DNA from: a virus
Direction: 5' to 3' (one strand)
Length of the DNA stretch: 44,011 nt
Virus record (IMG/VR): IMGVR_UViG_3300020159_002267
Coordinates: 1-44,011 of that record
This document shows positions 11,201 through 42,623 of the stretch, one piece after another. The stretch's first letter is position 1. Each line of letters opens with the position of its first letter. The notes beneath the pieces are model-generated. The model did no database searches. It was not told where the DNA came from and saw only the letters and a list, made by a program, of their open reading frames with translations. The position numbers and the translations under genes are program-made.

Positions 11201-14200
11201 GCGGTTGTATAATTAACTCCTACATTTCCAATAATGTAATTAGTAATCTTATACTTGTAATTTTCAGCATACGCAGAGTAAATTGGTAAACTAAAATATT
11301 CTGCATCAGTGCTTACATTTATATCAGGGGACCTATAAATGCTGTCAACATCGTAATATCTGCCAGGTATATCAAAATCTGTCCAGGATCCTGTTGCGAT
11401 ATCAGTTTTACTATATAGCGGTACGTACTCTCTGATAGCGGTTCTATATGGCTTGGCTTCGTTTATATACTCATTGTAAAAACTTTGGTTATCGCGTATA
11501 TAATTTGGAATCTGTTCTAAAGTTCTTAGATTATGATACACATCAATAAAACTGGTCTTAAAGATCCAGTCTGGAGTTTTTTGTTCTGAAAAAATATAAT
11601 TTACTATAGAGAAAAATAATTTGTTAAATTCAATGGCCAAACTGTTTATTAACAATTCAGTGTAAACGCTATCAAATATTTTACCAACTTCTACTCCAGC
11701 TGCTGGATCAAAATCTATAATGTCATACACTGTGGTATCAAACCCAGCACCCCAACTAACTTCGTGTAATCTTTCATTTAGTGTTAATGTTGCATTTTGT
11801 GCTGCAATTAACGTCAGGCTCAAATCATCTTCTACACGATAAATTAACCAATTTCCAATACCGTCGTCTAGTACCTGAATATATTGATCTGGAACTAAAT
11901 TAACAGTTTGAATAGCACCATAATTGGCTACTACATGACTGATATCTGTGCCTTCTACATATTCACTGCTGTACCAATCAATTGGAGTCCACCACAAATC
12001 TGTTTTAAAACTTTGAATATTTTTTAATTCTAATTCTTGACTGATTCCGTTGTATGTATACAAGGTCCATCGTCCGTTATACCTTGAGTCGTTGGGTATT
12101 AAAATGGTATACCCGTCAACAAATGTATCTAAATCTAAGTATGATAATTCAGCAAAAGATGCCACTTGATCGTCGTACACCAACGGTTGAGGTTCTTGTG
12201 AATATAAGGTAGCTGCATTACTAATCAGAAGAGCTGGATAATTTACAAAAATATCATTTAAGTTTTTTACAAAACTCTTTAAAGCTGGAATTCTATCTAA
12301 AAATACACCTTGTCTAGGTCTGATTAGTAATCCAATCCTGTTTTCTACAGTTAAATTAGGATCAGGCACAAGTTTACCTACCTCATCGAACCCACAATAA
12401 CTTTCTCGTAATTTATTTAAAATTCTTGCTGGTATTGTCTGGCTTGGATTACCTTGCTGAATCAATTGATATTCGTTATGAATTAAATTACTATTTTTTA
12501 CTTCGCAAGTGTCTATGTGTAGAACAATATCTTTACTTGAAAGTAAATTAGAAATATTATATAATGCAAAACTATTTTGTGCTAATGCTCCTATATAGGG
12601 AATATTTTGATCTTTAGGATTGCTTATATAGTTTTCTAGGGTTGCAACACTAACAGTTCGTTTTGCTTTATTAACATCCACTGATGTTTTACTACCCACC
12701 CAGTAATAATACTTTTGAGAAATAATTCCGGTGGCTGGATCTACAATACTGACACTTGTATAGGCAGAGTTGTTGGGGTATTTTGGAACGCCATCGCCTC
12801 CGTTTGCTACATACTGACTAGGTAAGAAATTACTTTCTACCCATTCGTATATTTTTACTTGGCTTCCTGGAAATAAACTACCCCAATTTTTTACTCTATA
12901 CTGTAAAGTATCTTGTTCATATTCAATGAAACTTGCCTGACTAGTATCCCACCAGGTTTTACCAACGTGTCTATTACCCCAATAGAATGTAGTATTAAGC
13001 GTGGTGTCATCTCTTAAAACAGTATTATAAGATGCAGGATCGTATTCTTCTTTATAATCTAATTCTTGATCAACAATGCCTAAAATTTTACCTTTAGCAG
13101 GATCATATACGTCAAAGAAATTTAATATAGTCTGAGTTTTTTTATTGTATATGAATGCAGAATCAATTGATTCTGGATCAACTTGATTATCTTTATATCT
13201 AATTAGATTCCAACCTGATTTATTATCTGGATTATTATAGGTATAGATACTGCCACCACTGTTGACAAGACCTGAATCTTTATTAACTCCAACTGCTAAT
13301 ATTCCGTTAACCAGACTTACACTAGATCCAAAATTATCTCCTGTATCCAAATCTGGTCCAACAAGTTTTTGTGTATATGCAAACAATGACGGATTATCTA
13401 CTGATTCAAAAGGATTTATCATTAAGTCAAACACATAGACTGCGCCAGACTCGTTTACTAGATCTACAAATTTTGTACTACTACTATCAAATGTAGTGTC
13501 AGAATAGGATTGATCAAAAGTGATAGGAATAGATAAATCAGCACCTTCGCTACCAACAGCCAAAACACCATATGATTGTGATAATCCTAAAGATGAGCCA
13601 AAACGTTCGCCCACGTTGTTGGGATGTTTAATTGTTTGAGTTTTCTTGTATATCTCTATTCCAAGATCGGCCAAGGCAGTACCTGTGCTTCCAGGTTTGA
13701 TATCTAATTTCTCATTTGCGACAGCCACATCACTATTAATTCTTAGTTTGCCTTGATAAATTTCAGCTGAAATTCCTGGAACATTGGAACTATTGATAGC
13801 AGATACCACAGAGGCCAAAGTTGTACCTGTAAGTTGTATATTCCTGTCATTTATAACAAATGTATGTCCTGCTGTTACTGTTGGGTTTACTGTTGCTCCA
13901 GTAATTTGACCATAGACTCTACCAACATTTACATACCTAGTAATTAATCCTGAGCTATAATGAATATCTGCGTAGTACGGACTGCTAATATATAAATTAC
14001 AACCGGTACCGCACATTGCTAAAATACTACCAAATTTTTGTCCTGAGGTTCCAATATCTGACGCATTGACCAATTGATTGAAAACAAATTGATTGGTTTC
14101 AATTCGTACTTTTTGTCCTCCGGTCGGGGTCGCAAAACCTGGAAACTGTACAACATTTAATGTGCCAGTTGGTCGATACCAATCTGTGCCCTCAGTTAGT

Positions 14201-17200
14201 ACTGTGTTGTTAAACACTACTCTATAAACATCATTGAAGTTATCAGGAGCTGTGAAAGTACCACTAAGCCCGTCGGTAGTAAATTCAGTGATTGTTCTAT
14301 GATAAATGCTTACTGATCCTTCGTTTGAAACACCATTCAATGATTTTGCGTTTGCACCAATTGATATAATTGAACTATCTCTATTTACAGCCACCGCGCA
14401 CCCAAAGTTTGTACCCGCAGAACCGCTAATAGTATCAATAAGTTTATAGTAGGATGTTCGTTTTAGTACATCAAACCGTTCAAAAATAGTAGGAGCTGTT
14501 CCAAAAGTTAAATTTGTTATTGTTCCTTTACTAGAAACTGTGATAGTAATATTATTTGTCGGAGATGTGCCGCCCAGACTGGTTCCAGGAATAGTTAAGA
14601 TATCACCGTTGCTGTATCCAGAGCCGCCATTTACTCGTATTGACGAGTAGGCACCAGAATTACTGTTAATAATTGTGAAAGTAGCGCCAGTTCCAGTTCC
14701 GCCAGTAGCAGGTAAATTAGTGTAAGTTAATACACCGGCACCAGATGTGCCGGTTCCTGCTGCTGTAAAGTTTATAATGCCGTTGGCAGCTTGTGTTATA
14801 GTATAATCCACAGTAGGAACATACTCAGCTGATCTCAAAACTGCAAATACCACTATATCAGTTGGGTCATCTACGGTAGACGATAAAGTGTATGTAGTAG
14901 CCGATCCTGTGCCCTCAAATGACTGAGTATCTTCTGCTCTAGTTTTAACTGCGTAGCAAAGAACTTTGTTTGCGCCAGGTGATCCTACATACAAGTAGTT
15001 TCCGTCTCTACTCATTGCAACCGATTCGCCAAACTTATCGTTTGTGGTTCCTGCTGCATCGGTTAGAATTTGAATCAGTACACCATCTTTATAAACATAA
15101 ACATAGCCTCTGTTGGTATAACTGTCAGGTGCTCCTACTGCGAAGTATCCAGTACCATTGGCAATTGACTTTCCAAAGCTGCTTAGTCCGTTGCTATTAC
15201 CATACAAGAAAGAACTAGGAACCCACGACGTGCTACTAGCACGGCCGTATATAGCGGCTCTTCCAGTTCCTGATCCAGGAGCACCTATATATAACAGTTG
15301 TCCTGTATTTGGATCCAGGCTAACAGATTGTCCAAAGAAGTCATTTCCATATAATTTACTGGCGTCTGGTTCAATTTTAACTCCGTATAACCAAGGATCA
15401 ATTTTATTATAAACTCCCCAATTTTGATCGCTGTCTAGATTACTAACCCAAACTTTATCATTTGGTATCCAGCCTGCCACTGGTCTAATAGATTCAACAT
15501 CTTTAAGGTAATCAATTTTGGTTGACGTTAATTTAAAAAGAATCCCTACTCCTGCATATGCCTGAGTATCTTTCATTTGTTGCAAATTTTGATAGAGACG
15601 TATATAAAATCTTGTGCTGTCAATGATACTATCAACTTGATATACTCCATCATATTCTGGTTCAAAATTCTTAATTACTACTAAATCACCAGTAGACAAT
15701 CCATGATCTCTATCAAAAATTACTTCTACTAGATCGTCAATGTTATATCGTAGTCCAAAAATATAACCATTAACTAAACTAGCTCGATATACATTCCAGT
15801 TTTTATCAAAATCTCTAGCTACCCAAATTTTATAACCAATACCAATATTATTGACGATTGTTGTCAATGTTTCGTAATCATTCAGGTCAAATATTGTTGC
15901 GTCAATATCGTCAAGATTTACAAACCCTGCTACCGGAAGAGGTTTAAATGTGTCAGTCTGATTTAATGTCTTTGCACGTAAAATCTTAGCATCGTATTCT
16001 CCCGCCGATTTAAACACGTTAGTATTGTCAAAAGATAATACATCAGGTTGTTTTTCTACAGTATTATCAAGCAATTGAAAGGCTGTAGGATTACTACTGA
16101 AATCTGTTTCGTTTAATTCAAATTCTACAAATTTGTTTATATCAGTGGCACCGTACTCACCAACTCGGACTGCCCAATTTTCGTAAAAATTAATATCAGT
16201 ATCTAAATTCCCAAAGGTTGCTCCTTGTAATGCATTCAATGCATTAACTGTTCCTTTTTGTTTAATAAACCCTTGATAAAATTTACTTTGAGTAGTTCCG
16301 TCAATTCCAAGGTTAGTAAAATACTCTCTGTTTCTGAATCCAATTAATCCATTGCTAAACAACTGCAAATCTTCATTGATTGGTTGATTGTCTATATCAT
16401 AGAAATTAATACCTTGTTGGGCGTTGGTAGCAAAATTATTAATTACACCAGACTTTAGTTCTGACGAAGGAATTAACTGCCAATTGGTTGTTTGAAATTG
16501 TTCAGACGCAGTAATATTTCGTATAGCAGTATAAAATCTAAACTTATATTTTACTACAGAGCCTTTCAAATAATCTTGCCCAGATACCCATTCGTCAACA
16601 GTATCACTGCTATAGATAAATCCTGGTAATTCCAAGCTTCCATTCCAGTTTGCTGTTTTAGCTCCTACTAATTTTAATCTATATTGTCTGTTTCCAAGTT
16701 CTGGCACATAAATGATATCATTGAACACTGTAATATTATCTAATATCAAAAGATGTTCGTACTGTACCAAGTCTAACTCAGCAAAACCAATTGATTGATC
16801 TGCATTGGCAGTAAAAGTAAATGTATTACTATCTCTGCTTATTGTAAAATTATTTTTAACAATTGGCTTAAAGTTTATATCTAGTACTCTGCTAGCATAA
16901 GGTGTGTTTTTAATTTCGTCAATGACCGCCGAACTATCAAATACTTTTAGTGATGTAGATATAGGGCTAAGAACAAGTATGCTTCCTGACTTCCACCCTT
17001 GAACGGACCAATGTAAAAATTCTTTGGCACTTAACACCCAATCTTTTTGTTCTTGCAAGTCATTATCTCTGTCTATAAAAATAAATCCCTGGGCAAGCAA
17101 ATATCTTTGATAGCTGACAAGAAAATCTACAACCTGTTGTTTGGTATTGAATTCAAACCCGTAAGGAACTGTGTATTTGGCTTTCTTGAAGTCTTTGTAT

Positions 17201-20200
17201 ATTGTTCCTCTTTGATTGCCAGAAGTAATAGTATATGCGTTATTATTAACCTGACTTGGTATTATAAAGAAGTATGGGTTTGTTAAATCATATCCACTGA
17301 CAATATATCCTGCAGAACTTTTTTCAATAATAACTGCACTATAGGTAATTTTATTAACAGGACTGCCTTTGTATAATTCAATTCTGTAATTTTCTTCAGG
17401 AACTATAACACTATCACTGATACTACTTGGGCTACTTTGTTCTGCAAGTAATTCAATGAATTTTTTGTCTGTATATCCTGCCATCTTATAAGACAACTGT
17501 ACATCTAACGCAGCAAGATTATCTTTTATTAAGATTGATGCATCTGCAATTCCTAAATTTTTAACATAATCTCTGATCCAATTTAGATAGCCAGAATTGC
17601 GTTCAACTGTTAACCCATTATCATATCCTTGTACTAATAAAGCAGTAGGAGTTAGATGCTGGCCTGTTGTTGCTGTTTCAAATTGTGCAGTAACAATATT
17701 TCTTGTATAATTCTGAGTATTGGCCAATAAAGCAAAGTATTTGGCTGGCTTGGCTAACGCAAGTGCAAGTTGTATAGCAAATGCAAATTCGCTGCTACGT
17801 CTCCATGCAGTTTCAACTGGACCCATATCACCTACTGCAAAACTAACATTGGCTTTTCCGCTATCAAAGTCAGCTACAAGTATTTTTTCAGGACTAATTA
17901 AATTACCGTTTTCGTCAACTGGAACATACTGTGAAAGATTAGGACGTTGATATCTTGCATCAAATCCTGCGCGATTGCCGGCATGTATATAACCCATGCT
18001 CAAATCACTCCACAGCAGACCGTTGCCTCCGGTATAAGGTGCCGGGCCGTATCTGTCATTCCAATAATCTGGTTTTTCGCTGAATCCTAGCATTTCCCAT
18101 GGATGTGTATGAGGTCTATCAGTGTCATAAAAATACTGATAAACGCTACGCCATGCGCCTGGCAGTGTCTCTCCATTAACTACATCTCTAAATCGTTTAT
18201 AGTTCCATGTAAACGGGTCTGATGCAGAAAACGTATTGTTTGTAGAATAATTTAATCTATTAGTACCAATCCAAGATAAAAAACCTTGGCTTAAAATTTG
18301 TGTAAATTCTGATCGCGTATAATCAGTGATTCTGAATTTTCCAGGCAGATAGTCATGAATATTAAAAATATTAGTATCGTATTGAACCTTGATATTATTA
18401 TAAATTCTACGTTCTAATTCTAATAATAAATTGTCTCTAAAATCATTGAATGCAGGGGTTATACTACCATCGTGCCCTTGTATTACAGTTATTGGCTCTC
18501 TGTAGGTATCATCAACATAGATTTCAGGATAAAATTTTGGGTACATTCCCATTTTTGTTGGAGTCTCAGGAACAAAACAACCATCTGTTGAACCGTACTC
18601 GACAATGTCAATTTTATCACCATATAATAAACCAAATGAATCGTTGATTGTAATAGCCGGTCTGTCTTGTCTAAAATAAAAATCTCTGTCTTTTATTAAT
18701 AATGTTTTTGATGTAACATTGTTAATTGTTCTTGTAAGATATGCTAGAACAGATTTATTGCTTATGATTTTATCATCAAAAATGCTTGTAATTTCATAAC
18801 TTGTAATATCTGGGTCTAATACTGTATATGTAGGAATAATGGTTTTATCTAGATCACCATACGGAAGCATATCACTATAATACCACGGGAATGAATCGTT
18901 TTTAACCGCATTAATTTGTAGCATAATAGCATCTACACTACCTGCAATGTCGTTGCGATTTAGATCTAGATTGCCTGCTAATTCTAAAAATTTAATTTTA
19001 AATTTTGTATATTCTCTATTGGCCAATCTAACAGAATTCACAAAGCTCATAGTAGGATGGTTTAAAAATAAACCAGCATAAACTACAGGAGCACTATGCT
19101 GCAATACACTTCCACCTTTGTCTGTATATTGAATATCTCTAAGATTACTATTACCAGGAACTTTACCAATAATATCTAAACTATTATTTTTTAGTGTAAT
19201 CAAGTGATTACGCATCTGACCAAGTGTCAGCATATCAAGATTGGTATTAAGACTGTTAACATCCAAATTCAACGGAACTTCGTAAAACGCATTAGGTGAT
19301 ACTAAATCTTTATTAAAGATACTAATAAAAATAACGTCATCTTTGACAATTAAATCAGGATTTACTAATACAGCATACTGATCAACTACTTTAGTTACAA
19401 CAAAATTACCAATATCTAAAATTGCATTGTTTACAGTAACTTTAATATTAGGATTAATAATGCTGGTATCTGGTATATTATCAATTGGAAATAAATTGGT
19501 TTCACCATCATATGCAAATTGATAATTTTGATATTGATGACTAAAATCTCTATTAATGGTCCAGATGTTCTGTCTTTGACATGTGGTTGCGTTGATGTTC
19601 TTTTGCAAATAGCCTGCATTAACTGTAACAGTTTCTATTCCCCCGCCACCAATTAGATAATCAAATGATTGTGTGTCGTAATCATTTGTAAATTGAATAT
19701 CTCCTTGGCTCACAAAGTTTTTATAACTTAGAGGAAATCCAATTACACTGTCGTTATTACCATTTCCTCTTTTGTAAGAAAATATCTTTGTTCCCTGAAA
19801 GGTTGTACCTGGATACACCGAGCTATTAGTAAAACTTACACCATCGTCATTAATAACATCAAATAATGGTTCCTGATTGTTATAAGTTTTTTCCTGCGAA
19901 GGTATCCAATTTGCGCCATTATAGTGCCAGTGCTTTCCTCCGTTGTTTCCAGATAAAATTAGAACTGTGTTTCCAGCAATAATGGTCGTATCATCAGTTT
20001 CTTGAATATAAGCCTTGTACACAAGAGGGTCAGGGGCTTCAGTTGTTAATTCAATAGTAAATTTGTAAATTTTATTTCTTACATCATTATTAATGTCATT
20101 TGAAAATATGACTCTGTCGCCTGTAGTTAATGTTAAATTACCTACTGTGAATGTCTTATTATCTACACAAACCAATCCTTGTATTTGAGTAAATGCATTA

Positions 20201-22377
20201 CTGATAGTTGTGTCAAGAATATCAACTGGCTGTTTTGCTTCAGCACCAAAATTATATAATTGTAAATCAGCATCAAATTCAATGACCGGTCTGCTGGCTC
20301 TTAAATTTTGATTGAATATTGCATCCGTTCCGTTATAGTCTGCAGTTTTTTGAATCACATCCATATGGAACCAACGATTGGCTCTTGACCAAGGATTTCT
20401 ATCAATGCTTGATCGCTTTACGGTCATGTAATCTTGAATTGCAGGTTGCAAATAAGCATTTATTAATGCTCCACTACCAGATCCTCCTAATAGATTTACT
20501 GGGTTAGTTGGCAGTGTTGAATAATTTCCGCGGTCTTTAATTTTAAATGCAGCAATAGGTCCGGAAGTAGGCGGAGCAATGGTTATCTTGGGTGCAGAGA
20601 AATATCCCAAGCCAGCAGTATCTACTATAATACTTGTAACTGTTCCGTTGGTAATTACAGCGTGAGCAAAAGCATTTGTTCCGGCAGCTGGAGCCGATTC
20701 TACTGTCACAACCGGAGCAGAGGTATATCCTGATCCACCATCGATGATATTGATTGATATTATAGCACCAGTAATTGAATTTATAACCGCGCTGGCAACA
20801 GCCGTGTCTTTAACAATGTCAGTTACTACAGCAGTAGCCGCAGATGATCCAACTCCACCATCAAGTGTCAATCTATCGCCTACAATATATTTTTGCCCTG
20901 CTTCAACTATCGTGCTGGTGTTTATAGATTCTATAGAAACTAAATCTAGCTCTGATATTAAAGTAATTGCTGTTCCAACACCTTCAACGTAATAATTTTT
21001 GTTTCTCCATTCTTCAGGGACACTACTATCAAATTTAACTTTTAATCCGTTTGTAAATTTTACTCCGTTTGGACTTGTATAGTTAATTTGATTTAATATT
21101 TCTAGATCTGGATCAATTGTACTTGCTGTAGGTTCAACTAATTTGATAGTTCCTACTGCATCGTTATCCTCCCCACTCTGATAGAACAATGTGTCAAGAG
21201 GAGCAGTTATGTATGGGACTAATGTTAATAAATTTAATCTTGCATAGAATTCGCGACCAGCATACTCTGTACCTGCCTTGATTCTTACTTTTCTTTCGTT
21301 AGGAACTGCTGATTTTGGAACTAAAATAATTCTTTCAGAGTTGTCTTGGTCTCTTTCAATTTTAATAGTAAAAATACCGGTTCTCTGGCCAACCGGAATT
21401 AAATTAGTTTGATCAAAATATGCAATGCCATCTTCTACTCTAGATGTGTCGACCCAATAGATATCGTCAATATAAGAAGGATTTACAAATACTACTGATG
21501 CATTTTCAAGGTACCTCACTGTACCGTCAATTCCGCCCAAGTTATTATTTAAATCTTGTGGATTGGATCCAAGGATCTGGGAAAAAGATAAATTTGTAGC
21601 ATAGTCGACATCGTCGACCATTGGCATAGATGTCCATTTATTTTGAGCAGCACTGTCTGGTACTGTAAATCTAACTGTTCCTGTAGATTGTCCGTTATTA
21701 GAAACTCCTAATACTTGCTTGGCATCTAAATTAGGCATTTCTGGATCAAGACCATTTACTGTAGGTTTTGATTGAATATAAAATTCATTCCCTGGCTCAT
21801 TTATATTAAAATCATAAATTCCGCCTCTAGATAGAGTAATAGTTGGATTAGGAGTTTTTCCGTACCCGGTAAATTCATATGTGCTAGTTGTAGCATTGTA
21901 TGATACTTCAAACGTTCCTTGTAAAGGCACGCCAACCGCCGATACTACTACTGGGGCTGGTCCGTTATCTAACCAATAGTATTGACTGAAGTTAACAAAT
22001 TTATCTAAGTCAATTTTAGGATTATATGTGTAATATTCATTATCAAATAAACGACTGTGGTTATTCGTTAATCCGCCATAATACTTAATTTTATTAATAA
22101 TGTCTGTGTACGTTGTTGCAAATTCTATTTCGTTAGTAACATCATTTTTTAATACCAAGGACGGTTCAAGTTGATAATTTTGTCTATCAACGGACGCTTC
22201 TTCGATATAACTATCGGTAGTTTTATACGATGGAGCTAATTTTCTTCCAATATATCCGTTTATTTTTTTCAACGCAGGTTCACTGACCAATTGGTCTAAT
22301 GTTGCGTTCAAAAACTTTTTGTTAGTTTCAGTTTGAAAAATTTCTGGAAGAAATTGATGTGTCTTAATAACGGCCAT
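8218..22377 (-). CDS. Giant tail/baseplate structural protein, 4719 aa, with two predicted beta-propellers
   Basis: The start MAVIKTHQFLPEIFQTETN and the following 150 residues, including YYGGLTNNH and FVNFSQYYWLDNGP, match the large tail proteins that follow gp6 in environmental T4-like phages. Seven FG-GAP-like units lie at about 2341, 2396, 2443, 2652, 2776, 2923 and 3011. They read (K/N)FGxSxxL...xxVGxP and are consistent with a seven-bladed propeller with insertions. Five units of about 50 residues, QDxxxxxxxFxxDGxxMYxxG...IYxYxL, lie at about 3853-4095 and suggest a second propeller. Segments of the form GSGYxSAPxVTV occur near 500-640, 2552-2625 and 3730-3782, as in adhesin stalks. It sits where T4 has gp7/gp8/gp10, so a baseplate or host-contact role is likely but unproven. 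AGGAAAA precedes the ATG. No protease or membrane segment was seen. Confidence 0.85.
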   Translation of the reverse strand: MAVIKTHQFLPEIFQTETNKKFLNATLDQLVSEPALKKINGYIGRKLAPSYKTTDSYIEEASVDRQNYQLEPSLVLKNDVTNEIEFATTYTDIINKIKYYGGLTNNHSRLFDNEYYTYNPKIDLDKFVNFSQYYWLDNGPAPVVVSAVGVPLQGTFEVSYNATTSTYEFTGYGKTPNPTITLSRGGIYDFNINEPGNEFYIQSKPTVNGLDPEMPNLDAKQVLGVSNNGQSTGTVRFTVPDSAAQNKWTSMPMVDDVDYATNLSFSQILGSNPQDLNNNLGGIDGTVRYLENASVVFVNPSYIDDIYWVDTSRVEDGIAYFDQTNLIPVGQRTGIFTIKIERDQDNSERIILVPKSAVPNERKVRIKAGTEYAGREFYARLNLLTLVPYITAPLDTLFYQSGEDNDAVGTIKLVEPTASTIDPDLEILNQINYTSPNGVKFTNGLKVKFDSSVPEEWRNKNYYVEGVGTAITLISELDLVSIESINTSTIVEAGQKYIVGDRLTLDGGVGSSAATAVVTDIVKDTAVASAVINSITGAIISINIIDGGSGYTSAPVVTVESAPAAGTNAFAHAVITNGTVTSIIVDTAGLGYFSAPKITIAPPTSGPIAAFKIKDRGNYSTLPTNPVNLLGGSGSGALINAYLQPAIQDYMTVKRSSIDRNPWSRANRWFHMDVIQKTADYNGTDAIFNQNLRASRPVIEFDADLQLYNFGAEAKQPVDILDTTISNAFTQIQGLVCVDNKTFTVGNLTLTTGDRVIFSNDINNDVRNKIYKFTIELTTEAPDPLVYKAYIQETDDTTIIAGNTVLILSGNNGGKHWHYNGANWIPSQEKTYNNQEPLFDVINDDGVSFTNSSVYPGTTFQGTKIFSYKRGNGNNDSVIGFPLSYKNFVSQGDIQFTNDYDTQSFDYLIGGGGIETVTVNAGYLQKNINATTCQRQNIWTINRDFSHQYQNYQFAYDGETNLFPIDNIPDTSIINPNIKVTVNNAILDIGNFVVTKVVDQYAVLVNPDLIVKDDVIFISIFNKDLVSPNAFYEVPLNLDVNSLNTNLDMLTLGQMRNHLITLKNNSLDIIGKVPGNSNLRDIQYTDKGGSVLQHSAPVVYAGLFLNHPTMSFVNSVRLANREYTKFKIKFLELAGNLDLNRNDIAGSVDAIMLQINAVKNDSFPWYYSDMLPYGDLDKTIIPTYTVLDPDITSYEITSIFDDKIISNKSVLAYLTRTINNVTSKTLLIKDRDFYFRQDRPAITINDSFGLLYGDKIDIVEYGSTDGCFVPETPTKMGMYPKFYPEIYVDDTYREPITVIQGHDGSITPAFNDFRDNLLLELERRIYNNIKVQYDTNIFNIHDYLPGKFRITDYTRSEFTQILSQGFLSWIGTNRLNYSTNNTFSASDPFTWNYKRFRDVVNGETLPGAWRSVYQYFYDTDRPHTHPWEMLGFSEKPDYWNDRYGPAPYTGGNGLLWSDLSMGYIHAGNRAGFDARYQRPNLSQYVPVDENGNLISPEKILVADFDSGKANVSFAVGDMGPVETAWRRSSEFAFAIQLALALAKPAKYFALLANTQNYTRNIVTAQFETATTGQHLTPTALLVQGYDNGLTVERNSGYLNWIRDYVKNLGIADASILIKDNLAALDVQLSYKMAGYTDKKFIELLAEQSSPSSISDSVIVPEENYRIELYKGSPVNKITYSAVIIEKSSAGYIVSGYDLTNPYFFIIPSQVNNNAYTITSGNQRGTIYKDFKKAKYTVPYGFEFNTKQQVVDFLVSYQRYLLAQGFIFIDRDNDLQEQKDWVLSAKEFLHWSVQGWKSGSILVLSPISTSLKVFDSSAVIDEIKNTPYASRVLDINFKPIVKNNFTISRDSNTFTFTANADQSIGFAELDLVQYEHLLILDNITVFNDIIYVPELGNRQYRLKLVGAKTANWNGSLELPGFIYSSDTVDEWVSGQDYLKGSVVKYKFRFYTAIRNITASEQFQTTNWQLIPSSELKSGVINNFATNAQQGINFYDIDNQPINEDLQLFSNGLIGFRNREYFTNLGIDGTTQSKFYQGFIKQKGTVNALNALQGATFGNLDTDINFYENWAVRVGEYGATDINKFVEFELNETDFSSNPTAFQLLDNTVEKQPDVLSFDNTNVFKSAGEYDAKILRAKTLNQTDTFKPLPVAGFVNLDDIDATIFDLNDYETLTTIVNNIGIGYKIWVARDFDKNWNVYRASLVNGYIFGLRYNIDDLVEVIFDRDHGLSTGDLVVIKNFEPEYDGVYQVDSIIDSTRFYIRLYQNLQQMKDTQAYAGVGILFKLTSTKIDYLKDVESIRPVAGWIPNDKVWVSNLDSDQNWGVYNKIDPWLYGVKIEPDASKLYGNDFFGQSVSLDPNTGQLLYIGAPGSGTGRAAIYGRASSTSWVPSSFLYGNSNGLSSFGKSIANGTGYFAVGAPDSYTNRGYVYVYKDGVLIQILTDAAGTTNDKFGESVAMSRDGNYLYVGSPGANKVLCYAVKTRAEDTQSFEGTGSATTYTLSSTVDDPTDIVVFAVLRSAEYVPTVDYTITQAANGIINFTAAGTGTSGAGVLTYTNLPATGGTGTGATFTIINSNSGAYSSIRVNGGSGYSNGDILTIPGTSLGGTSPTNNITITVSSKGTITNLTFGTAPTIFERFDVLKRTSYYKLIDTISGSAGTNFGCAVAVNRDSSIISIGANAKSLNGVSNEGSVSIYHRTITEFTTDGLSGTFTAPDNFNDVYRVVFNNTVLTEGTDWYRPTGTLNVVQFPGFATPTGGQKVRIETNQFVFNQLVNASDIGTSGQKFGSILAMCGTGCNLYISSPYYADIHYSSGLITRYVNVGRVYGQITGATVNPTVTAGHTFVINDRNIQLTGTTLASVVSAINSSNVPGISAEIYQGKLRINSDVAVANEKLDIKPGSTGTALADLGIEIYKKTQTIKHPNNVGERFGSSLGLSQSYGVLAVGSEGADLSIPITFDQSYSDTTFDSSSTKFVDLVNESGAVYVFDLMINPFESVDNPSLFAYTQKLVGPDLDTGDNFGSSVSLVNGILAVGVNKDSGLVNSGGSIYTYNNPDNKSGWNLIRYKDNQVDPESIDSAFIYNKKTQTILNFFDVYDPAKGKILGIVDQELDYKEEYDPASYNTVLRDDTTLNTTFYWGNRHVGKTWWDTSQASFIEYEQDTLQYRVKNWGSLFPGSQVKIYEWVESNFLPSQYVANGGDGVPKYPNNSAYTSVSIVDPATGIISQKYYYWVGSKTSVDVNKAKRTVSVATLENYISNPKDQNIPYIGALAQNSFALYNISNLLSSKDIVLHIDTCEVKNSNLIHNEYQLIQQGNPSQTIPARILNKLRESYCGFDEVGKLVPDPNLTVENRIGLLIRPRQGVFLDRIPALKSFVKNLNDIFVNYPALLISNAATLYSQEPQPLVYDDQVASFAELSYLDLDTFVDGYTILIPNDSRYNGRWTLYTYNGISQELELKNIQSFKTDLWWTPIDWYSSEYVEGTDISHVVANYGAIQTVNLVPDQYIQVLDDGIGNWLIYRVEDDLSLTLIAAQNATLTLNERLHEVSWGAGFDTTVYDIIDFDPAAGVEVGKIFDSVYTELLINSLAIEFNKLFFSIVNYIFSEQKTPDWIFKTSFIDVYHNLRTLEQIPNYIRDNQSFYNEYINEAKPYRTAIREYVPLYSKTDIATGSWTDFDIPGRYYDVDSIYRSPDINVSTDAEYFSLPIYSAYAENYKYKITNYIIGNVGVNYTTAPNVEIIGGGGSGASAITTINPATGKLTGIYVVNPGSGYISTPTVFINGVGSGATAYPILHNEYNVSGSYNTVRDITTTIKFDRISYSSNVIQWQPNTAYEQTIIVDGNKANAWNLDRLEFAETNTGVSSQDSDITELFFDDTGTKMYIAGNDSNRIYQYTLSIPWDATTASNVGAFSVTGQDTNVQGLYFRDDGAKMYIAGATTDSIYEYRLATSWMVNTASNVSVKSIASQDSSPRAVEFSKDGLNMYVVGTLTDTIYQYTLSTPWQIETATYSGKNLSVAGQDNFPTAIRFKSNGSKLFMIGQQNDTLFEYTLSINWDISTATFSNSYGLKTSTPTGLYFKYDGTGMYVSDSGTNSVQSYIFNSFGIVPVESNVYITSGNIIYYNNVAYIATNANVSSQSVFDFSRYSQIDNGNILLSAADRITSYYFPEVGRPGKDFGQLMFGTEYPGNKVEGKNFLANSYAITSNVIGFNYTGMRITSANIQQVDFAKGGFELNDTLRIQGQYDFPFKNNADFRIISIDHSEMMLSGPPIETLYTITLNSNVSLQEGDYITQANTRANAFVLHNYPTANVIQIIHSTTGFTVSANTIAINGVPQSAYIEEIVAGGAANVKITNLTIDTLLDSNIASFYKDTALGTRPEDINIVGGAYVDGYSSHAPEELIPGRVFDSLEMRVFTNNASNTATYGFREFQPMRGNIEFYRISSNSTTTLSANLSITDIDIYVNDASVLPDPGAVVGIPGEVFINGELIHYYQKYDSTKILTADPWTPNTEFATDHLIAHSGNTYLVLANVYANSTAYINSSNVRQVFVNTLSQLRRGVDGTGAANLHLTGTKVVDSSLVQVLPNTAPKFTTLSGTFNVAANVSWRIQLGAPITANVGSYITQNSNTANVRLLETVSSANTVAVQFVSGNLTIGSNTINIFNPVSSAWQTTAANVRAMKILGEVNGSGNVVLINNTILQSNLWIPLGTGVGLAGSTSEAAQFIKQEVSYTP

Positions 22378-36323: not shown

Positions 36324-38092
36324 TGTTTAAAATAAAAACTTTATCTGTAAAAAACTTTATGAGCGTGGGTAATGCCACGCAGGCTGTTCAATTTGACCGC
36401 CGGGATCTTACTCTAGTACTAGGACAGAATTTAGACCTGGGCGGAGACGACACAGGAGCCAGGAATGGAACTGGCAAAACAACCATTATTAATGCACTTA
36501 GCTATGCGCTATACGGATCAGCTTTAACTAATATTAAAAAAGATAATCTTATCAATAAGACCAACGGTAAGAATATGTTAGTTAACATTGAGTTTGAAAA
36601 AGATGGAGTTGATTATCGAATCGAGCGTGGGCGCAAGCCCAACACAATGGCCTTCTATGTGGGTGGCGAAGAACAACAGATTACTGACGAAAGTCAGGGC
36701 GACAGTAGAGAAACACAAGCAGAAATAGAACGTATGCTAGGAATGAGTCATGACATGTTTAAACATATTGTGGCTCTTAACACATACACTGAACCTTTTT
36801 TGGCTTTAAAGGCAAATGATCAGCGAGCCATCATTGAGCAATTGCTTGGTATAACAATGCTGTCAGAAAAAGCTGACACACTCAAGGAACAATTAAAAGC
36901 GACTCGAGATGCTATAACACAAGAAGAGTATCGTATCAAGGCTGTCACTGATGCTAATGGGCGTATTCAAGAACAAATTGAAGCTACACGACGTAGACAA
37001 ACTCTTTGGAATACCAAGCGCCTAAACGAAATAACAGAATTAGAAAAGGCATTAGCAGTTGTTGGAGATTTAGATATTGATCAAGAACTTGTCAATCATG
37101 ACGCTCTAGATGCGTATAATGAACAAGTTAAAGCTATCAAGGAAATCTCCAAGTGGAAGATTGCTTGCGAATCAGAGCAAGTAAAATTATTAAAACAATT
37201 AGACAAACTCAAAAGCGAAATAGCCAAGCTAGAAAAACACGAATGTTATGCGTGTGGGCAAGCAATACATGACACAAAGCACGAGGAAGTACTTGATGAA
37301 AAACGTGCAGCATCAAAAGAAACTTCGTTGCAGTACTTGGCCAATGATACTCAATTGGATGAGCACACAGAAGCTTTAAAAATTCTAGGCGAACCTGGAA
37401 CAGTTCCTGCTGTATTCTATGATCGAAAAGAAGATGCTATCAATCATAAAAACACCGTAGCAAACTTAAAACAACAGCTGGAGACTAAAAAAACAGAACC
37501 AGATCCTTATGCAGAACAGATTGCAGACATGGAAACACAGGCCTTAGAAGAAATTAATTATGATGCAATCAATGAACTTGCCAATGTGCGAGAGCATCAA
37601 GAGTTTTTACTTAAACTGTTAACCAACAAAGACAGTTTTATTCGTAAACGTATTATTGATCAAAATTTAAGTTATCTAAATGCCAGACTCAGTCAGTATT
37701 TGGATAGAATTGGTTTACCACATACTGTCAAGTTCCAAAATGATTTAACTGTCAGCATTGAAGAGCTAGGTAGAGAACTAGATTTTGACAACTTGTCTCG
37801 CGGCGAACGTAATAGATTGATTCTAAGTCTAAGTTGGGCGTTCCGTGATGTATGGGAAAGTTTGTATCAACCAATTAACCTATTGTTCATTGATGAAGTA
37901 ATTGATACTGGCATGGACAGTTCAGGTGTAGAAAACAGTCTAGCAATACTAAAGAAAATGGCTCGAGAAGGCAATCGTAGTGTATGGTTGGTATCGCACA
38001 AAGACGAACTAGCTGGTCGTGTAAACAATGTATTGAGTGTGGTTAAAGAAAATGGATTCACTAGCTATAACACCGATGTCGAAATTGTTTAA
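36323..38092 (+). CDS. 46: Recombination endonuclease subunit gp46 (Rad50/SbcC-like ATPase)
   Basis: This is the SMC-type ATPase partner of gp47. The Walker A region is GARNGTGKTT (45-54). A coiled coil (about 180-450) is interrupted by the zinc-hook motif CYAC at 308-311. The ABC signature is LSRGER (491-496), Walker B is LLFIDEV (520-526) and the switch histidine is H559. All are intact and the 589 residues match the family (T4 gp46 is 560). The short coiled coil is typical of phage versions. The gene starts on the last base of the gp47 stop. Its final 17 bases are shared with the ATG of the first radical SAM gene, tying that accessory cassette to the recombination operon. Confidence 0.97.
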   Translation: MFKIKTLSVKNFMSVGNATQAVQFDRRDLTLVLGQNLDLGGDDTGARNGTGKTTIINALSYALYGSALTNIKKDNLINKTNGKNMLVNIEFEKDGVDYRIERGRKPNTMAFYVGGEEQQITDESQGDSRETQAEIERMLGMSHDMFKHIVALNTYTEPFLALKANDQRAIIEQLLGITMLSEKADTLKEQLKATRDAITQEEYRIKAVTDANGRIQEQIEATRRRQTLWNTKRLNEITELEKALAVVGDLDIDQELVNHDALDAYNEQVKAIKEISKWKIACESEQVKLLKQLDKLKSEIAKLEKHECYACGQAIHDTKHEEVLDEKRAASKETSLQYLANDTQLDEHTEALKILGEPGTVPAVFYDRKEDAINHKNTVANLKQQLETKKTEPDPYAEQIADMETQALEEINYDAINELANVREHQEFLLKLLTNKDSFIRKRIIDQNLSYLNARLSQYLDRIGLPHTVKFQNDLTVSIEELGRELDFDNLSRGERNRLILSLSWAFRDVWESLYQPINLLFIDEVIDTGMDSSGVENSLAILKKMAREGNRSVWLVSHKDELAGRVNNVLSVVKENGFTSYNTDVEIV

Positions 38093-39200
38093 TTTTAATT
38101 CAGTTAAAGAATATCAAATTGAGATTACAACTTATTGTAATGCTGCCTGTCCACAGTGCCCAAGGAACGTACAAGGATCGGGACTAAATCCATACATGCC
38201 TCTACTGCATTTAGATCGCGATACCATCGACGCTGCATTTAGTGTTGCTCATTGCGAAAATTTAAAACAAATATTTTTCTGCGGTAGCTATGGTGATCCA
38301 ATAATGCACCCAGACTTCTTAGATATACTACAAGACTTTAGACGTAAGAATTCAACTTTATGGTTATACATTCATACCAACGGTGGTGTACATGATGAAA
38401 AATATTGGCAAGAAATTGCAACCATTATGAATGGTTATGGTCAAATTGATTTTGGATTTGATGGCTTAGGAGACACTTTACATTTGTATAGACGTAATGT
38501 AAAATACGATATTGCTATGCGTAATGCTCGTGCGTTTATCAACGCAGGCGGCAGGGCTCAATGGAATTACATTGTTTTTAAACACAACGAACATCAAGTT
38601 GAACAGGCTCAAGCACTGAGCAAGGAATATGGATTTTTTAATTTCTTGCCAAGAAAGACCGGGCGTTTTTATGACCATACTAACGAATCATCTTATCCAA
38701 ATTGGCCAGTATTAGATAAGCATGGTTATACCGAATACGTGTTAGAAGAGCCTGTAAATGAAGAGTGGCGAAATCCTAGTGTGCAAAAAATAGAAGTTAT
38801 AAAAAAGATGCACGGTAGTTTTAACGAATATCTAAAGCAGACACCAATACAATGTGATGCATTGTTAGGAAACAAAGTGGTGATCACTGCCGAAGGGTTA
38901 GTACTACCATGCAATTTTTTTGAACATAACATGTATGATGCTAGATTTCATACATTTGCACGACCAGGTGCAAACTATGCAAGTTTTACAGATAGCGGAA
39001 AAATACAAGTAAAAGAATTTATTGATCAATATAAAAATGAATTAGATATTAATAAAAAAAATCTACCCGACATCTTCAAATCTTATTTTTGGAGAGATTT
39101 AGTCGGTAGCTGGTCAGATTCTAATAGGATCATGGAATGTGCAATGACTTGCGGAGAAAAATTTACCAAAGTATGGGATCAAGGAGGATCCATTAGATGA
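38076..39200 (+). CDS. Radical SAM enzyme with SPASM-like C-terminal cysteines, 374 aa
   Basis: The start is taken as ATG at 38076 (MSKLFNFNSVKEYQIEITTY), which overlaps gp46 by 17 bases. An earlier ATG at 38037 would add 13 residues inside gp46. The CxxxCxxC motif (C21, C25, C28) binds the 4Fe-4S cluster used to cleave S-adenosylmethionine. GSYGDP and the downstream strands fit the partial TIM barrel. C260, C279, C355 and C359, with VVITAEGLVLPC between the first two, form a SPASM/twitch-like auxiliary cluster site. This layout is usual in peptide-, sugar- or cofactor-modifying maturases, but the substrate cannot be read. The stop overlaps the next ATG (ATGA). It is the first gene of an accessory cassette after gp46. 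Confidence 0.85.
   Translation: MSKLFNFNSVKEYQIEITTYCNAACPQCPRNVQGSGLNPYMPLLHLDRDTIDAAFSVAHCENLKQIFFCGSYGDPIMHPDFLDILQDFRRKNSTLWLYIHTNGGVHDEKYWQEIATIMNGYGQIDFGFDGLGDTLHLYRRNVKYDIAMRNARAFINAGGRAQWNYIVFKHNEHQVEQAQALSKEYGFFNFLPRKTGRFYDHTNESSYPNWPVLDKHGYTEYVLEEPVNEEWRNPSVQKIEVIKKMHGSFNEYLKQTPIQCDALLGNKVVITAEGLVLPCNFFEHNMYDARFHTFARPGANYASFTDSGKIQVKEFIDQYKNELDINKKNLPDIFKSYFWRDLVGSWSDSNRIMECAMTCGEKFTKVWDQGGSIR
39181..39187 (+). promoter_or_regulatory. Strong ribosome binding site for the SDR gene
   Basis: AAGGAGG lies nine bases before the ATG at 39197, inside the last codons of the radical SAM gene. It is the only near-perfect Shine-Dalgarno sequence I noticed in this operon, suggesting the dehydrogenase is made in larger amount than its neighbours. 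Confidence 0.75.
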
Positions 39201-39787
39201 AAGTTTTAATTACAGGTGGTAATAGAGGATTAGGCAAACACTTGGTAGATGCGTTTGACGGCGTAAGCGTAAGTCGTGCAGATAATCTTGACATAACAAA
39301 GGATTACAAATCTATTGCCACAATGAGCTTAGATTATGATATTTTTATTAACAATGCTTTCGACGGGCCACCACAAGAAGCGTGGGCCAACTTTGGTCAA
39401 GTACACGTACTAGAAGCTGTATACGATGCATGGAGTCAAAATAATAAAACAGGACACATTTATAACATTGGAAGTGTAGGAGAAAAGACCGTTGTTGCTC
39501 GTGAACCTAGCTTTGAAACTTATCGTGTAGCAAAAGCAGCCTTGGCACATGCAAGTAAGCAATGTACTGCTTCGTTCAAAGCCAGTCAAGTTCCGTTTAA
39601 AACTACGTTAATTACACTAGATCGTTTAGATACTGAACTTAGTCGCAGTAGGGCAACGTGGACTGGCAACGGAATTATGTTAAATGATGTGGTAAATTTT
39701 ATAAATTATTCTAGCACTTTAAATGATAATACTTGTATTGAAGAAATAACCTTTTACTGCAATTTTGAATATGTCAAAACTTATTAA
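39197..39787 (+). CDS. Short-chain dehydrogenase/reductase, 196 aa
   Basis: This is a Rossmann-fold oxidoreductase of the SDR family. TGGNRGLG (6-13) is the NAD(P)-binding glycine motif and NNA (52-54) the structural motif. S93 (in NIGSVGEK), Y109 and K113 (YRVAK) form the complete catalytic Ser-Tyr-K set. R10 after the glycine motif slightly favours NADP. At 196 residues it is shorter than classical SDRs (about 250); the C-terminal substrate loop is reduced, so the substrate is probably small or the partner protein completes the pocket. It overlaps the upstream gene by four bases and the downstream radical SAM gene by 17 bases. It probably oxidises or reduces an intermediate of the radical SAM enzymes. 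Confidence 0.85.
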   Translation: MKVLITGGNRGLGKHLVDAFDGVSVSRADNLDITKDYKSIATMSLDYDIFINNAFDGPPQEAWANFGQVHVLEAVYDAWSQNNKTGHIYNIGSVGEKTVVAREPSFETYRVAKAALAHASKQCTASFKASQVPFKTTLITLDRLDTELSRSRATWTGNGIMLNDVVNFINYSSTLNDNTCIEEITFYCNFEYVKTY

Positions 39788-40385
39788 AATTACTCCCATA
39801 GAGGATGAATTTGTTATTTCTTGGATTATGCATCTAAGATGCAATTATGATTGTATGTATTGTCCTGAAAACAGACATAATAATAACGGCGAAATGAAAA
39901 GTTTAGATGAACTTAAACAATATTGGCTACAAATATATAATAACACAAAACATTTAAATAAAAAATACAAGCTACAACTTACTGGCGGCGAGATTACTAT
40001 CAATAAAAGTTTTTTGCCTTTTATTGAGTTTTTACGTACAGAATTTGGGGATAAGATATCGCATCTTGGAATGAACACCAATGGCAGTGCGAGCACAAAT
40101 TATTATCTTAAAGTTTTAAAATATGTAGACAGTATCTCGTTTAGTACTCACACAGAGCACATGGATGTTGATAAATTTTTTGCCACAGTTAAAGCCTGCT
40201 CTGACTATGTCAGAGATATTCCAAAAAAAACTTGTCATTTAAATATTATGGATGAATACTGGGCCGAAGAACAAATTGAAGATTTTGTACAAAGATGCAA
40301 AAATGACAAAATTTTTTATAGTATGAGTCCAATTTTTTGGCAGCATAAGACTAGAGATCATCCTATTTTTAAAATTAAATCATAA
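39771..40385 (+). CDS. Second radical SAM enzyme, catalytic domain, 204 aa
   Basis: The start is ATG at 39771 (MSKLIKITPIEDEF), 17 bases inside the SDR gene; an in-frame TTG two codons earlier is less likely. C24, C28 and C31 form CNYDCMYC (CxxxCxxC). LQLTGGEITI corresponds to the GGE motif that contacts SAM, and the MNTNGS strand follows. The protein ends after the barrel core without any auxiliary-cluster cysteines. The adjacent 104-residue gene looks like exactly that missing part. The stop TAA shares a base with the next ATG (TAATG). The pair is best seen as one radical SAM enzyme split into two chains. Substrate unknown. There is no clear ribosome site, so translation depends on the upstream gene. 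Confidence 0.85.
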   Translation: MSKLIKITPIEDEFVISWIMHLRCNYDCMYCPENRHNNNGEMKSLDELKQYWLQIYNNTKHLNKKYKLQLTGGEITINKSFLPFIEFLRTEFGDKISHLGMNTNGSASTNYYLKVLKYVDSISFSTHTEHMDVDKFFATVKACSDYVRDIPKKTCHLNIMDEYWAEEQIEDFVQRCKNDKIFYSMSPIFWQHKTRDHPIFKIKS

Positions 40386-40720: not shown

Positions 40721-41155
40721 ATGTCATGGCTATTTGAATCCACCCTAGTGGAGACCCTTCCCGAAGATTGCGTGGGATTTGTATATTTGATTACAAATAC
40801 AGTATCTGGGCGCAAATACATAGGGAAAAAACTAGCCAAATTTTCAAAAACTACAGTACGAACAGTAAAACTTAAAAACGGCACCAAAAAGAAAAAGAAG
40901 ATCAGAAGCAAAATAGATAGCGATTGGCAATTATATTATGGCTCAAACGACGAACTCAAAAAAGACATACAAGCACTAGGCCCAGAAAATTTTACTAGAG
41001 AAATACTATATTACTGTAAATCAAAAGCAGAATGTTCATATATTGAAGCAAGAGAACAATTCCGACACCAAGTCTTAGAATCAGATGCGTATTATAACGG
41101 ACATATACAAGTCCGTGTCCATGGCTCCCACATAAAAAACAAGTTAAGCAGTTAA
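40721..41155 (+). CDS. GIY-YIG endonuclease, SegE-like, 144 aa
   Basis: GFVYLITNTVSGRKYIGKK (19-37) holds the two halves of the GIY-YIG nuclease motif. R31 is probably the catalytic arginine region, and a Lys-rich loop (about 45-62) interrupts the domain. WQLYYGSND follows at about 69-77. The segment YIEAREQF near the C-terminus carries the likely metal-binding glutamate. This pattern matches proteins named SegE-like or GIY-YIG endonuclease in T4-like phages. There is no DNA-binding helix-turn-helix or zinc-finger tail, so it is a stand-alone small nuclease. It may be a free-standing homing endonuclease or a host DNA degrading enzyme. It closes the plus-strand operon and is directly followed by the hairpin-chain region. 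Confidence 0.82.
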   Translation: MSWLFESTLVETLPEDCVGFVYLITNTVSGRKYIGKKLAKFSKTTVRTVKLKNGTKKKKKIRSKIDSDWQLYYGSNDELKKDIQALGPENFTREILYYCKSKAECSYIEAREQFRHQVLESDAYYNGHIQVRVHGSHIKNKLSS

Positions 41156-41159
41156 GCTA

Positions 41160-41509
41160 GCACAAGCTGATATCGTGTGCCCTAAACCTGGATCTAGGAT
41201 CACAGGGATGGAAGCCTTCTCGCTGCAAGAAGCACTCAACTACTACCCGCAAGGATGAAGATCGCAAATGCCGCGATTTAGTTGTTTGAATAGGATAAAA
41301 AGGCTGAAAAGACGCATGAGCGATCATGCACGTTTGTACGTATGCTAGCGTATATTGTACGAACCGCCGTTGTATAAGAACGGAGCTCGAGGTACCGGAC
41401 AACCGCCTCTGTAATGCTCTAACGCTAGTGGATGTGCTACTCGGATGAAGCTCATTATATTTTTTGCCCGCCTTGGGCAAAGAGTGGACGATTAATCTGG
41501 ATGAAACTT
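41160..41509 (+). ncRNA. Candidate structured non-coding RNA (hairpin chain)
   Basis: About 350 bases hold no credible gene but fold into consecutive perfect or nearly perfect hairpins. They lie at 41160-41180, 41187-41206 (GATC stem), 41216-41232, 41259-41279 (7 bp), 41314-41329 (GCATGA with GCGA tetraloop) and 41332-41364 (8 + 5 bp with a 3-base bulge). Further ones are at 41367-41383, 41389-41409 (GAGG/CCTC with CGG-ACAA-CCG inside) and 41463-41481 (TTTGCCC/GGGCAAA). G-U pairs in the 41259 and 41332 stems would become A-C mismatches on the other strand, and GCGA is a GNRA loop only on the plus strand. Both point to plus-strand transcription. The region is visibly richer in GC than its neighbours. 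It is not tRNA, tmRNA or RNase P by any signature I know. Confidence 0.6.
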
Positions 41510-41562: not shown

Positions 41563-41775
41563 TTAGAAGAATGGCATTCCTGACTTCTTGGCAGTTTCTA
41601 AGTTATCTTTAACAATTTTACCAATAATTTTTCGTTCATCTAAACTCAACATCATAGCATCATCATAACTTAATCCACCCCGCATATACCAACATAATCT
41701 TAGTGCTTCTTCTTTTAAGGCTTTTGACTGTGCTTCAAGTCGATCAAAGTGAGCTATCATGTCCTCATTGGACAT
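41563..41775 (-). CDS. 51: Baseplate hub assembly protein gp51-like
   Basis: This 70-residue protein starts at ATG 41775 (MSNEDMIAHFDRLEAQSK). A TTG two codons earlier is the only alternative. LRLCWYMRGGLSYDDAMMLSLDERKIIGKIVKDN, with TAKKSGMPFF at the end, is the pattern of the small gp51-type hub assembly catalysts in environmental T4-like phages. The shared features are the YMRGG turn and the terminal GxPFF. T4 gp51 helps build the central hub but is not in the finished virion. It follows gp26 by an 11-base gap, the usual pairing. T4 gp51 itself is larger, so the assignment rests on the environmental relatives and the gp26 neighbour. Confidence 0.8.
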   Translation of the reverse strand: MSNEDMIAHFDRLEAQSKALKEEALRLCWYMRGGLSYDDAMMLSLDERKIIGKIVKDNLETAKKSGMPFF

Positions 41776-41786
41776 AGTCAAAAGCC

Positions 41787-42623
41787 TTAGCCGAAAAAAT
41801 TAGCATTGTCAAAACTTAATTCTGACATGTAAGTTTCCTGGCATTCAGGGCAAGTTATGTTTAGTGATTCAGGCTTTGTGCTTTTTACTATAGTTTCTAT
41901 TTTATCTTTAATTGCACTATAAACTTTTCTATCGCAATTTTCAATGAATTCTTTGATGTATTTTGATTCATTTACTTCTTTATCATCATCTGTGATAATT
42001 GATTCAATACAATATACCAAGGACATTACATTCATTTCTGTCAACTTTGGAAAAATTAAATTAAACTGTTTTGTTTTTTCTTCGTCTGGTAGATCGCTAC
42101 GAGATATAGTATCTAGAAGTTTCTGTTGTTCGAACACCATCATATTGTTATTATTAATTGTTTCGTATGCCTGCGGTTTAAAATTAAACGTAAGATCTTC
42201 TATAGTGGTTGAAACATATTTGGGCATTTTATAATTGTCTAACAACACAGTTAAATCTATTACATTTGAGTTTTCTTCGTTGCATTTTGGGCATGTGGTT
42301 TCAATATCCATGTCTGAGCCATAACTGGCCAAACGTATAGCAATCAAAATTGCATCTAGATCTGCTGCAGGAGTTTTCCAAGCGTTCTTGATATTAGGGC
42401 AACAGCTTTGAATTACTTCAACCACACCCAGACCGTTCATGAGAGCATCTGGAGTTTTGATAGTAATTTCATCTTTGACAGTCATTGGGTAAATTGGTAA
42501 TTCACCAGTTGGCGGAATGTCTATAGCATCGTCGGGCCAAAAGCGACCTTGACTGGGCAATTTTAAATAAATTGCTGGTTGTCGAAAATGTTTAAACAGC
42601 GGATTGTTAGCAGGATTTGCCAT
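41787..42623 (-). CDS. 26: Baseplate hub protein gp26-like with zinc-ribbon cysteines
   Basis: This is a 278-residue member of the T4 gp26 family. The N-terminus FRQPAIYLKLPSQGRFW and GELPIYPMTVKDEITIKTPDALMNG are the diagnostic parts. Two CxxC pairs, CPKC (111-114) and CPEC (258-261), can together form a zinc ribbon. gp26 works in hub assembly together with gp51 and the tape measure protein gp29. Those are its two neighbours here, gp51 downstream and a tape-measure-type gene divergently upstream. A perfect TATAAATA late octamer lies 34 bases before the ATG. The ribosome site is weak (GGGA). Confidence 0.9.
   Translation of the reverse strand: MANPANNPLFKHFRQPAIYLKLPSQGRFWPDDAIDIPPTGELPIYPMTVKDEITIKTPDALMNGLGVVEVIQSCCPNIKNAWKTPAADLDAILIAIRLASYGSDMDIETTCPKCNEENSNVIDLTVLLDNYKMPKYVSTTIEDLTFNFKPQAYETINNNNMMVFEQQKLLDTISRSDLPDEEKTKQFNLIFPKLTEMNVMSLVYCIESIITDDDKEVNESKYIKEFIENCDRKVYSAIKDKIETIVKSTKPESLNITCPECQETYMSELSFDNANFFG

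Follow-up and report, generated by a model that had tools for sequence, protein, structure and literature searches.

Twin variable 7-mers kept identical within a long pseudoknotted RNA of uncultivated T4-like phages

Introduction

Among large structured RNAs, GOLLD and ROOL have been linked to phages. In phi29 pRNA, also of phage origin, the sequences of two short loops are under joint constraint, and the transcription regulatory sequences of coronaviruses are short identical repeats that vary between viruses and match within one. The only credible Rfam family at the locus described here is RF01718 (Polynucleobacter-1), which was published in 2010 from Burkholderiales and fresh water and was rated "probably" an RNA and "probably" cis-regulatory (Table 1, PMC2864571).

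In this study, we analysed a stretch of 44,011 nucleotides of the uncultivated virus record IMGVR_UViG_3300020159_002267 (hereafter the window) together with its relatives. According to our comparative analysis, a pseudoknotted plus-strand RNA is widespread among these phages, where it is single-copy, and two variable 7-mers in it (R1 and R2) follow a strict identity rule. Of this RNA, only the first third of one variant is in the catalogue.

Materials and Methods

Relatives were collected with a pattern of the 5' domain, which gave 73 IMG/VR stretches, and with gp26 and GIY-YIG protein searches, which gave 147 further loci; most loci are metagenome fragments. An nhmmer profile was made from 31 members of the first pattern set and aligns to window positions 41153-41506. 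Rfam 15 was searched with cmscan. Covariation was scored by a G-test with average-product correction, against a null model that keeps the tree and the substitutions per branch (our own re-implementation of the R-scape idea). A joint model of the module in body types A, B and C was built on primary sequence, without base pairs, and was not used.

Results

Extent and classification of the RNA

One long structured RNA of about 350 nt, a member of class A, begins at the stop codon of a GIY-YIG gene in the window (Table 1). Its first 133 nt match RF01718 over model positions 1-141 of 141, far above the gathering threshold of 37 bits, and no other credible Rfam family is found in the entire 44 kb. 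The P1-P5 stems of this family are kept in the homologues (85-99% paired, with compensatory changes). Both the nhmmer matches and the covariation extend to 41505, about 220 nt past the end of the Rfam model, and the length of the whole RNA is about 2.5 times that of the model. No Rfam family matches the remaining 220 nt or so, body type B or C, or the twin 7-mers, and no earlier description of the 3' domain, of these body types or of the twins was found in open-licence PubMed Central papers.

The sequence-only reading of this stretch had proposed an undescribed phage structured RNA at 41160-41509. The structured RNA is strongly supported by covariation under a tree-based null and by a held-out prediction, while its limits are corrected to 41155-41505 and "undescribed" does not apply to the first 133 nt, which belong to RF01718 (PMC2864571). 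The same reading had held the region to be noncoding and higher in GC than its neighbours, and both points stand: the single long ORF, of 107 aa on the minus strand (41157-41480), lacks conservation, with a minus-strand stop-free stretch of at least 100 codons in just 3 of 61 homologues, and the GC content of the RNA is 0.473 versus 0.31-0.38 in the adjoining genes. The twin 7-mers, the most unusual feature of the RNA, had been overlooked.

Other known RNA classes were searched for in the window. ARAGORN finds no tmRNA or tRNA-like molecule, and Rfam gives no match to one; no intron family matches at E<=10, as a group I intron with a GIY-YIG homing gene might have done, and the RNA sits between genes and interrupts none; cmscan gives no match to either GOLLD or ROOL.

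Table 1. Features of the RNA locus in the window (positions 1 to 44,011)
Feature	Position	Strand	Evidence
GIY-YIG (SegE-like) gene, stop codon meets RNA start	40721..41155	+	PF19835, 1.9e-33
Full-length structured RNA, class A	41155..41505	+	nhmmer profile match, covariation along entire length
5' domain, RF01718 Polynucleobacter-1	41155..41287	+	cmscan 118.6 bits
5' H-type pseudoknot, P1 41160-64/41176-80 and P0 41155-57/41166-68	41155..41180	+	98.7% (P1) and 91.8% (P0) paired, compensatory changes; P1 pairs 41162-41178 and 41164-41176 at E=0
P2 stem-loop, 41187-89/41204-06 and 41191-94/41198-201	41187..41206	+	85% paired, compensatory in 6/7 pairs
P3 stem-loop	41216..41232	+	95.5% paired
P4 41237-42/41279-84 around P5 41260-65/41273-78	41237..41284	+	about 98% paired, compensatory changes
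P6, GCATGA-GCGA-TCATGC, GNRA hairpin	41314..41329	+	four neighbouring pairs at E=0; outer three 100% paired
P7 hairpin (8+5 stem), loop part of PK1	41332..41364	+	all pairs compensatory; 41339-41357 and 41343-41352 covary
PK1, 5' strand CTAGCGT, with ACGCTAG at 41422-41428	41345..41351	+	98.4% paired, compensatory in 6/7; pair 41349-41424 at E=0
PK2, 5' strand GTTGT, with ACAAC at 41399-41403 in P10 loop	41369..41373	+	97.7% paired
P9 41382-86/41416-20 around P10 41389-92/41406-09	41382..41420	+	94-96% paired; P9 pairs 41383-85/41417-19 and P10 pair 41390-41408 at E=0
R1, GGATGAA, preceded by ACTC	41443..41449	+	same word as R2 in all 120 dereplicated class A/B homologues
P11 hairpin between the twins, TTTGCCC/GGGCAAA	41463..41481	+	88% paired, 2/7 pairs compensatory in class A; more compensatory changes in A+B alignment
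R2, GGATGAA, preceded by AATCT	41499..41505	+	41443-41499, 41447-41503 and 41449-41505 covary as identities, E=0
gp51-like gene, convergent with RNA, outside it	41563..41781	-	position; conserved beside gp26 in 153 loci

Secondary structure and pseudoknots

Among 83 class-A sequences, 26 pairs are significant under the tree-based null. A 76-pair structure with three pseudoknots was evaluated on another alignment, of 61 sequences: pairing reaches 92.3%, compensatory changes occur at 56 pairs, and its covariation score of 0.426 compares with 0.173 for shuffled controls and 0.06-0.09 with the partners slid. The minimum-energy fold of the plus strand reaches a z-score of -1.41, 7 of 100 shuffles being equally good, and that of the minus strand -0.68. 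Since folding energy fails to separate the RNA from its shuffles, the claim of structure rests on the comparison of homologues.

Of the checks proposed with the sequence-only reading, the one for covariation among homologues came out positive and the one for a fold better than shuffled controls did not. The RNA is also not the simple chain of hairpins first envisaged, as its loops are joined by three pseudoknots (41155-57/41166-68, 41345-51/41422-28 and 41369-73/41399-403), with P0/P1, PK1 and PK2 at pairing levels of 92-99% in the 61-sequence alignment. Compensatory changes are present in the predicted GCATGA/TCATGC stem (41314-41319/41324-41329), in the 41332-41364 stem and in the outer GAGG/CCTC part (41389-41392/41406-41409) of the nested GAGG-CGG/CCG-CCTC hairpin, whose inner CGG/CCG exists but is too conserved for testing. 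The predicted preference for the plus strand was borne out as well: P5, P7, P9 and PK1 have 10-22% G-U pairs and 0-2% A-C mismatches, and this excess identifies the plus strand as the RNA. PK2 was additionally examined by a held-out prediction, in which the partner GTCGT was found upstream in all 48 distinct loci picked for the variant ACGAC. The pair 41436-41493 is borderline (71% paired) and was left out of the structure. Positions 41246 and 41256 covary strongly through a C..T/T..C exchange across an ACCC..GGATG hairpin, with no standard pair either way.

Relatives and body types

Hundreds of uncultivated water-borne T4-like phages have the RNA at the same genomic place. The nhmmer profile matches 199 of 228 loci (195 at 20 bits or more), and three body types, A, B and C, were distinguished, all of which end in one module bearing R1 and R2 (ACUC-R1, a hairpin, UGAC and AAUCU-R2, in this order). 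About 45 loci match the profile in the 3' part alone and differ in the 5' body (class B); Rfam gave no match for those class-B loci that were tested, and scanning with a class-B pattern yielded no hits. Five remote members (L113, L127, L215, L171 and L128) were recovered with a covariance model of the 3' domain, and three of them share the body of class C. With a pattern containing the repeat of these three, class C was found in at least 120 IMG/VR stretches, about two chance matches being expected by our estimate. Twenty scanned class-C loci have no Rfam match, and their genomic place is the same, with GIY-YIG upstream in 63 and gp51 downstream in 54 of 80 fetched loci. Class C shows two significant long-range pairs and is otherwise too conserved for covariation.

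The RNA is single-copy, with one each in the 18 of 18 records searched whole. Among isolated phages and plasmids, BLAST with the RNA of class A, of class C and of a distant member gave no RNA match; a match in Melnitz phage falls in the GIY-YIG gene, outside the RNA. A covariance-model search of ten isolated phage genomes, with strict filters and no positive control, found none. Two pattern matches in GTDB contigs were rejected as members, L227 for want of a profile match and L228 with a score of 15 bits; L024, the viral counterpart of L228, also scores just 15 bits.

Genomic setting and transcription

The locus is fixed: the RNA follows the recombination operon gp47-gp46(-nuclease) and runs towards the oppositely oriented gp51-gp26. 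In 178 of 199 RNA loci it directly follows a same-strand GIY-YIG gene, in most cases at a distance of 30 nt or less. This gene is replaced by a PDDEXK_15/RusA-like nuclease in L045, L100, L120 and L136, and other genes intervene between nuclease and RNA in L176, L214 and L177. Gp51 is on the opposite strand in 153 of 199 loci, and neither Pfam nor PHROG yields a match for the gp51-like gene of the window.

The late-promoter box TATAAATA was absent close upstream of the RNA in 172 loci, apart from one case in the farthest bin, and transcription of the RNA from a late promoter was rejected on this ground; read-through from the upstream genes is therefore the likely source. On the plus strand 100-200 nt downstream of R1, this T4-type box is enriched (24 box counts in about 168 loci), at a place where gp51 is often convergent; the minus strand has none.

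Further features were noted around the locus. A long inverted repeat, AAGGCTTTTGACT...AGTCAAAAGCCTT at 41710-41795, spans the gp51 start and the gp51/gp26 junction, and in Rfam it gives a sub-threshold microRNA look-alike only. Between gp46 and the GIY-YIG gene, the stretch 38037-40385 holds two radical-SAM genes and a short-chain-dehydrogenase-like gene, and it differs among related phages. A single ORF of 4719 codons occupies 8218-22377 on the minus strand, and proteins of similar length (about 4300-5150 aa) form a family in other RNA-bearing genomes.

The identity rule of R1 and R2

Across the 120 dereplicated class A/B sequences, which use 15 different words, R1 equals R2 without exception. 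At least 31 changes of the word, each shared by both copies, are needed on a class-A tree from which the R columns were left out. The spacing between the copies is 47-65 nt, and the boundary of the identity is sharp at 7 nt, where the constant flanks differ (CTC_G for R1 versus TCT_A for R2). The five remote members also keep R1=R2. Identity counts in class C are partly biased, some loci having been fetched via the repeat, and only words other than ACATGAA were taken as evidence: among class-C members chosen by body, the copies are equal in 24 with a differing word. Equal copies were also seen by eye in the class-C members L468 and L460.

Two mismatches, both G/A, were found among about 200 sequences chosen regardless of word: ACATGAG/ACATGAA in the class-C member L472 and GGATAAT/AGATAAT in L507, the one true mismatch of the class-A held-out set. 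An apparent second mismatch in that set, L557, was a parsing error. The identity is stricter than most helices of the same RNA, which are 92-98% paired. A coupling of this kind, being an identity, would escape a search limited to complementary covariation.

The element before each twin (GTGGA/GTGGA at window positions 41428-41432 and 41484-41488; elsewhere GTGAC/GTGAC or ATGAC/ATGAC) also tends to change in both copies, with a looser coupling than R. L460, which has a class-C body, carries a longer, different word, ATCATCAAGT, as each of its twins, and its flanks are altered too.

Search for a partner

No other column of the RNA follows R, the next-best score being 9.8 versus 100 for position 41443 and 39-46 versus 95-112 for the other two positions. 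The exact reverse complement of R occurs 6 times between -450 and +400 nt, versus 5-14 times with swapped words; being no commoner near the RNA than in the control, it indicates no partner in cis. In 11 phage records of 72-280 kb each, neither the R word nor its reverse complement is enriched, save for a moderate excess in one record, G013 (38 versus 19). At shared phage genes of these 11 records the reverse complement is not above the swapped-word controls, in phage tRNAs it was not found, and a search for further copies of the module elsewhere in the phage genomes gave scattered single short matches only. Given the negative searches in cis, at shared genes and in tRNAs, a nucleic-acid partner would probably lie outside the conserved phage genes. 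The putative partner is probably of host origin, or else a phage RNA that is not sequence-conserved.

Discussion

Hundreds of T4-like phages keep a large RNA at one address, and it must therefore matter to them. We posit, with a little better than even confidence, that this RNA stands on its own, outside any mRNA leader, and that its twin 7-mers bind a putative partner common to both. The RNA would be transcribed through read-through from the upstream operon, and its body would keep R1 and R2 single-stranded, so that each could recognise one and the same 7-nt partner in trans, base pairing being the simplest means. A change of the partner would then force an identical change in both copies. 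As a default guess, the RNA may regulate or titrate this partner during infection. The shared-partner reading is preferred because both mismatches are G/A, a kind tolerated by G-U pairing, and because neither a junction nor a deletion form turned up in any locus; two such cases are too few for proof, and pairing should have tolerated more G/A differences than these two, which counts against a shared partner.

The strongly diverged bodies A, B and C present the same module, and the whole may, with confidence somewhat short of even, be regarded as an RNA machine whose function needs identical, not complementary, 7-mers. If true, this would be a form of sequence coupling not known to us from any other structured RNA, and it could for example consist of two copies of a recognition word reading the same partner, or of a strand-transfer pair. 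The identity rule of the variable 7-mers is a rare clue to mechanism, suggesting that whatever reads the word reads it twice.

An unlikely alternative is that the identity is made by copying or strand transfer between the twins as a template-switch or crossover pair, either with a nascent complementary strand on one copy annealing to the other, in the manner of the coronavirus repeats, or with a recombinase using identical 7-bp overlaps. Same-sense identity without a complement in cis is the signature expected of such a process, the sharp 7-nt boundary between different constant flanks also fits, and an identity tighter than most helices leaves room for copying. However, none of the loci seen had lost the stretch between the copies, no enzyme dedicated to the process emerged, and the structure of the body is RNA-like in its G-U bias.

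Only marginally less plausible is that the two copies are bound by a dimeric protein of phage or host instead of a nucleic acid, much as repeats are in decoys and RNA antitoxins. Repetition extends to the neighbouring GUGAC/UGACC and ACUC/AUCU elements, and the module resembles a tandem duplication of a binding unit, but a sharp 7-nt identity maintained through about 25 words exceeds the usual demand of a protein, and no co-evolving gene was identified.

We consider it improbable that the RNA works with the upstream GIY-YIG or PDDEXK nuclease. The frequency of GIY-YIG beside the RNA, in class C as in the profile-matched loci, would fit such an association, as would the PDDEXK_15/RusA-like nuclease often found at the same spot where GIY-YIG is missing. 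On the other hand, the RNA stays with nucleases of another fold or separated from it by genes (L176, L214, L177 and L125), and GIY-YIG homologues occur in isolated phages without a detectable RNA. GIY-YIG was rejected as an obligatory partner, as the RNA persists without it; these nucleases are more readily seen as free-standing endonucleases that have settled next to an element which is itself conserved.

A cis-regulatory role as a 5'-UTR control RNA is less probable still, despite the published rating of Polynucleobacter-1 and a same-strand ORF next downstream in 23 of 103 loci. In the other 80 the next ORF is convergent, which argues against a 5' UTR. A riboswitch would lie upstream of, and on the strand of, the gene it regulates; gp51 in the window is on the minus strand and in most loci on the strand opposite to the RNA, the RNA adjoins the 3' end of the gene before it, and R1=R2 would be left unexplained. 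Judged by gene order, the RNA is not a 5'-UTR element in most phages, and the 2010 rating should be revised. Chance hairpins, or a structure acting as DNA alone, would agree with the unexceptional fold energy, but this reading is very remote and, as regards chance, already refuted, given covariation well above the tree-based, shuffled and slid controls, the plus-strand G-U bias and the successful pseudoknot prediction.

Compared with known systems, the twins resemble the coronavirus transcription regulatory sequences by mechanistic analogy only: the window belongs to a DNA phage, its repeats are 47-65 nt apart in a structured RNA, and no template-switch product was seen. The loops of phi29 pRNA are complementary and pair between molecules, whereas R1 and R2 carry the same word, to which nothing in the RNA is complementary. 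We know of no twin-repeat rule for GOLLD or ROOL. These ornate large RNAs (PMC12286853) are, like the window RNA, large, structured and free-standing, and the window RNA is the shorter. With RF01718 the relation is one of membership, window positions 41155-41287 being a full-length, high-scoring member. The Rfam model, however, is without the 3' domain and the twin 7-mers, it leaves the class B and C relatives unmatched, and the 5'-UTR-like role for which it was rated differs from the setting of the RNA family in most loci.
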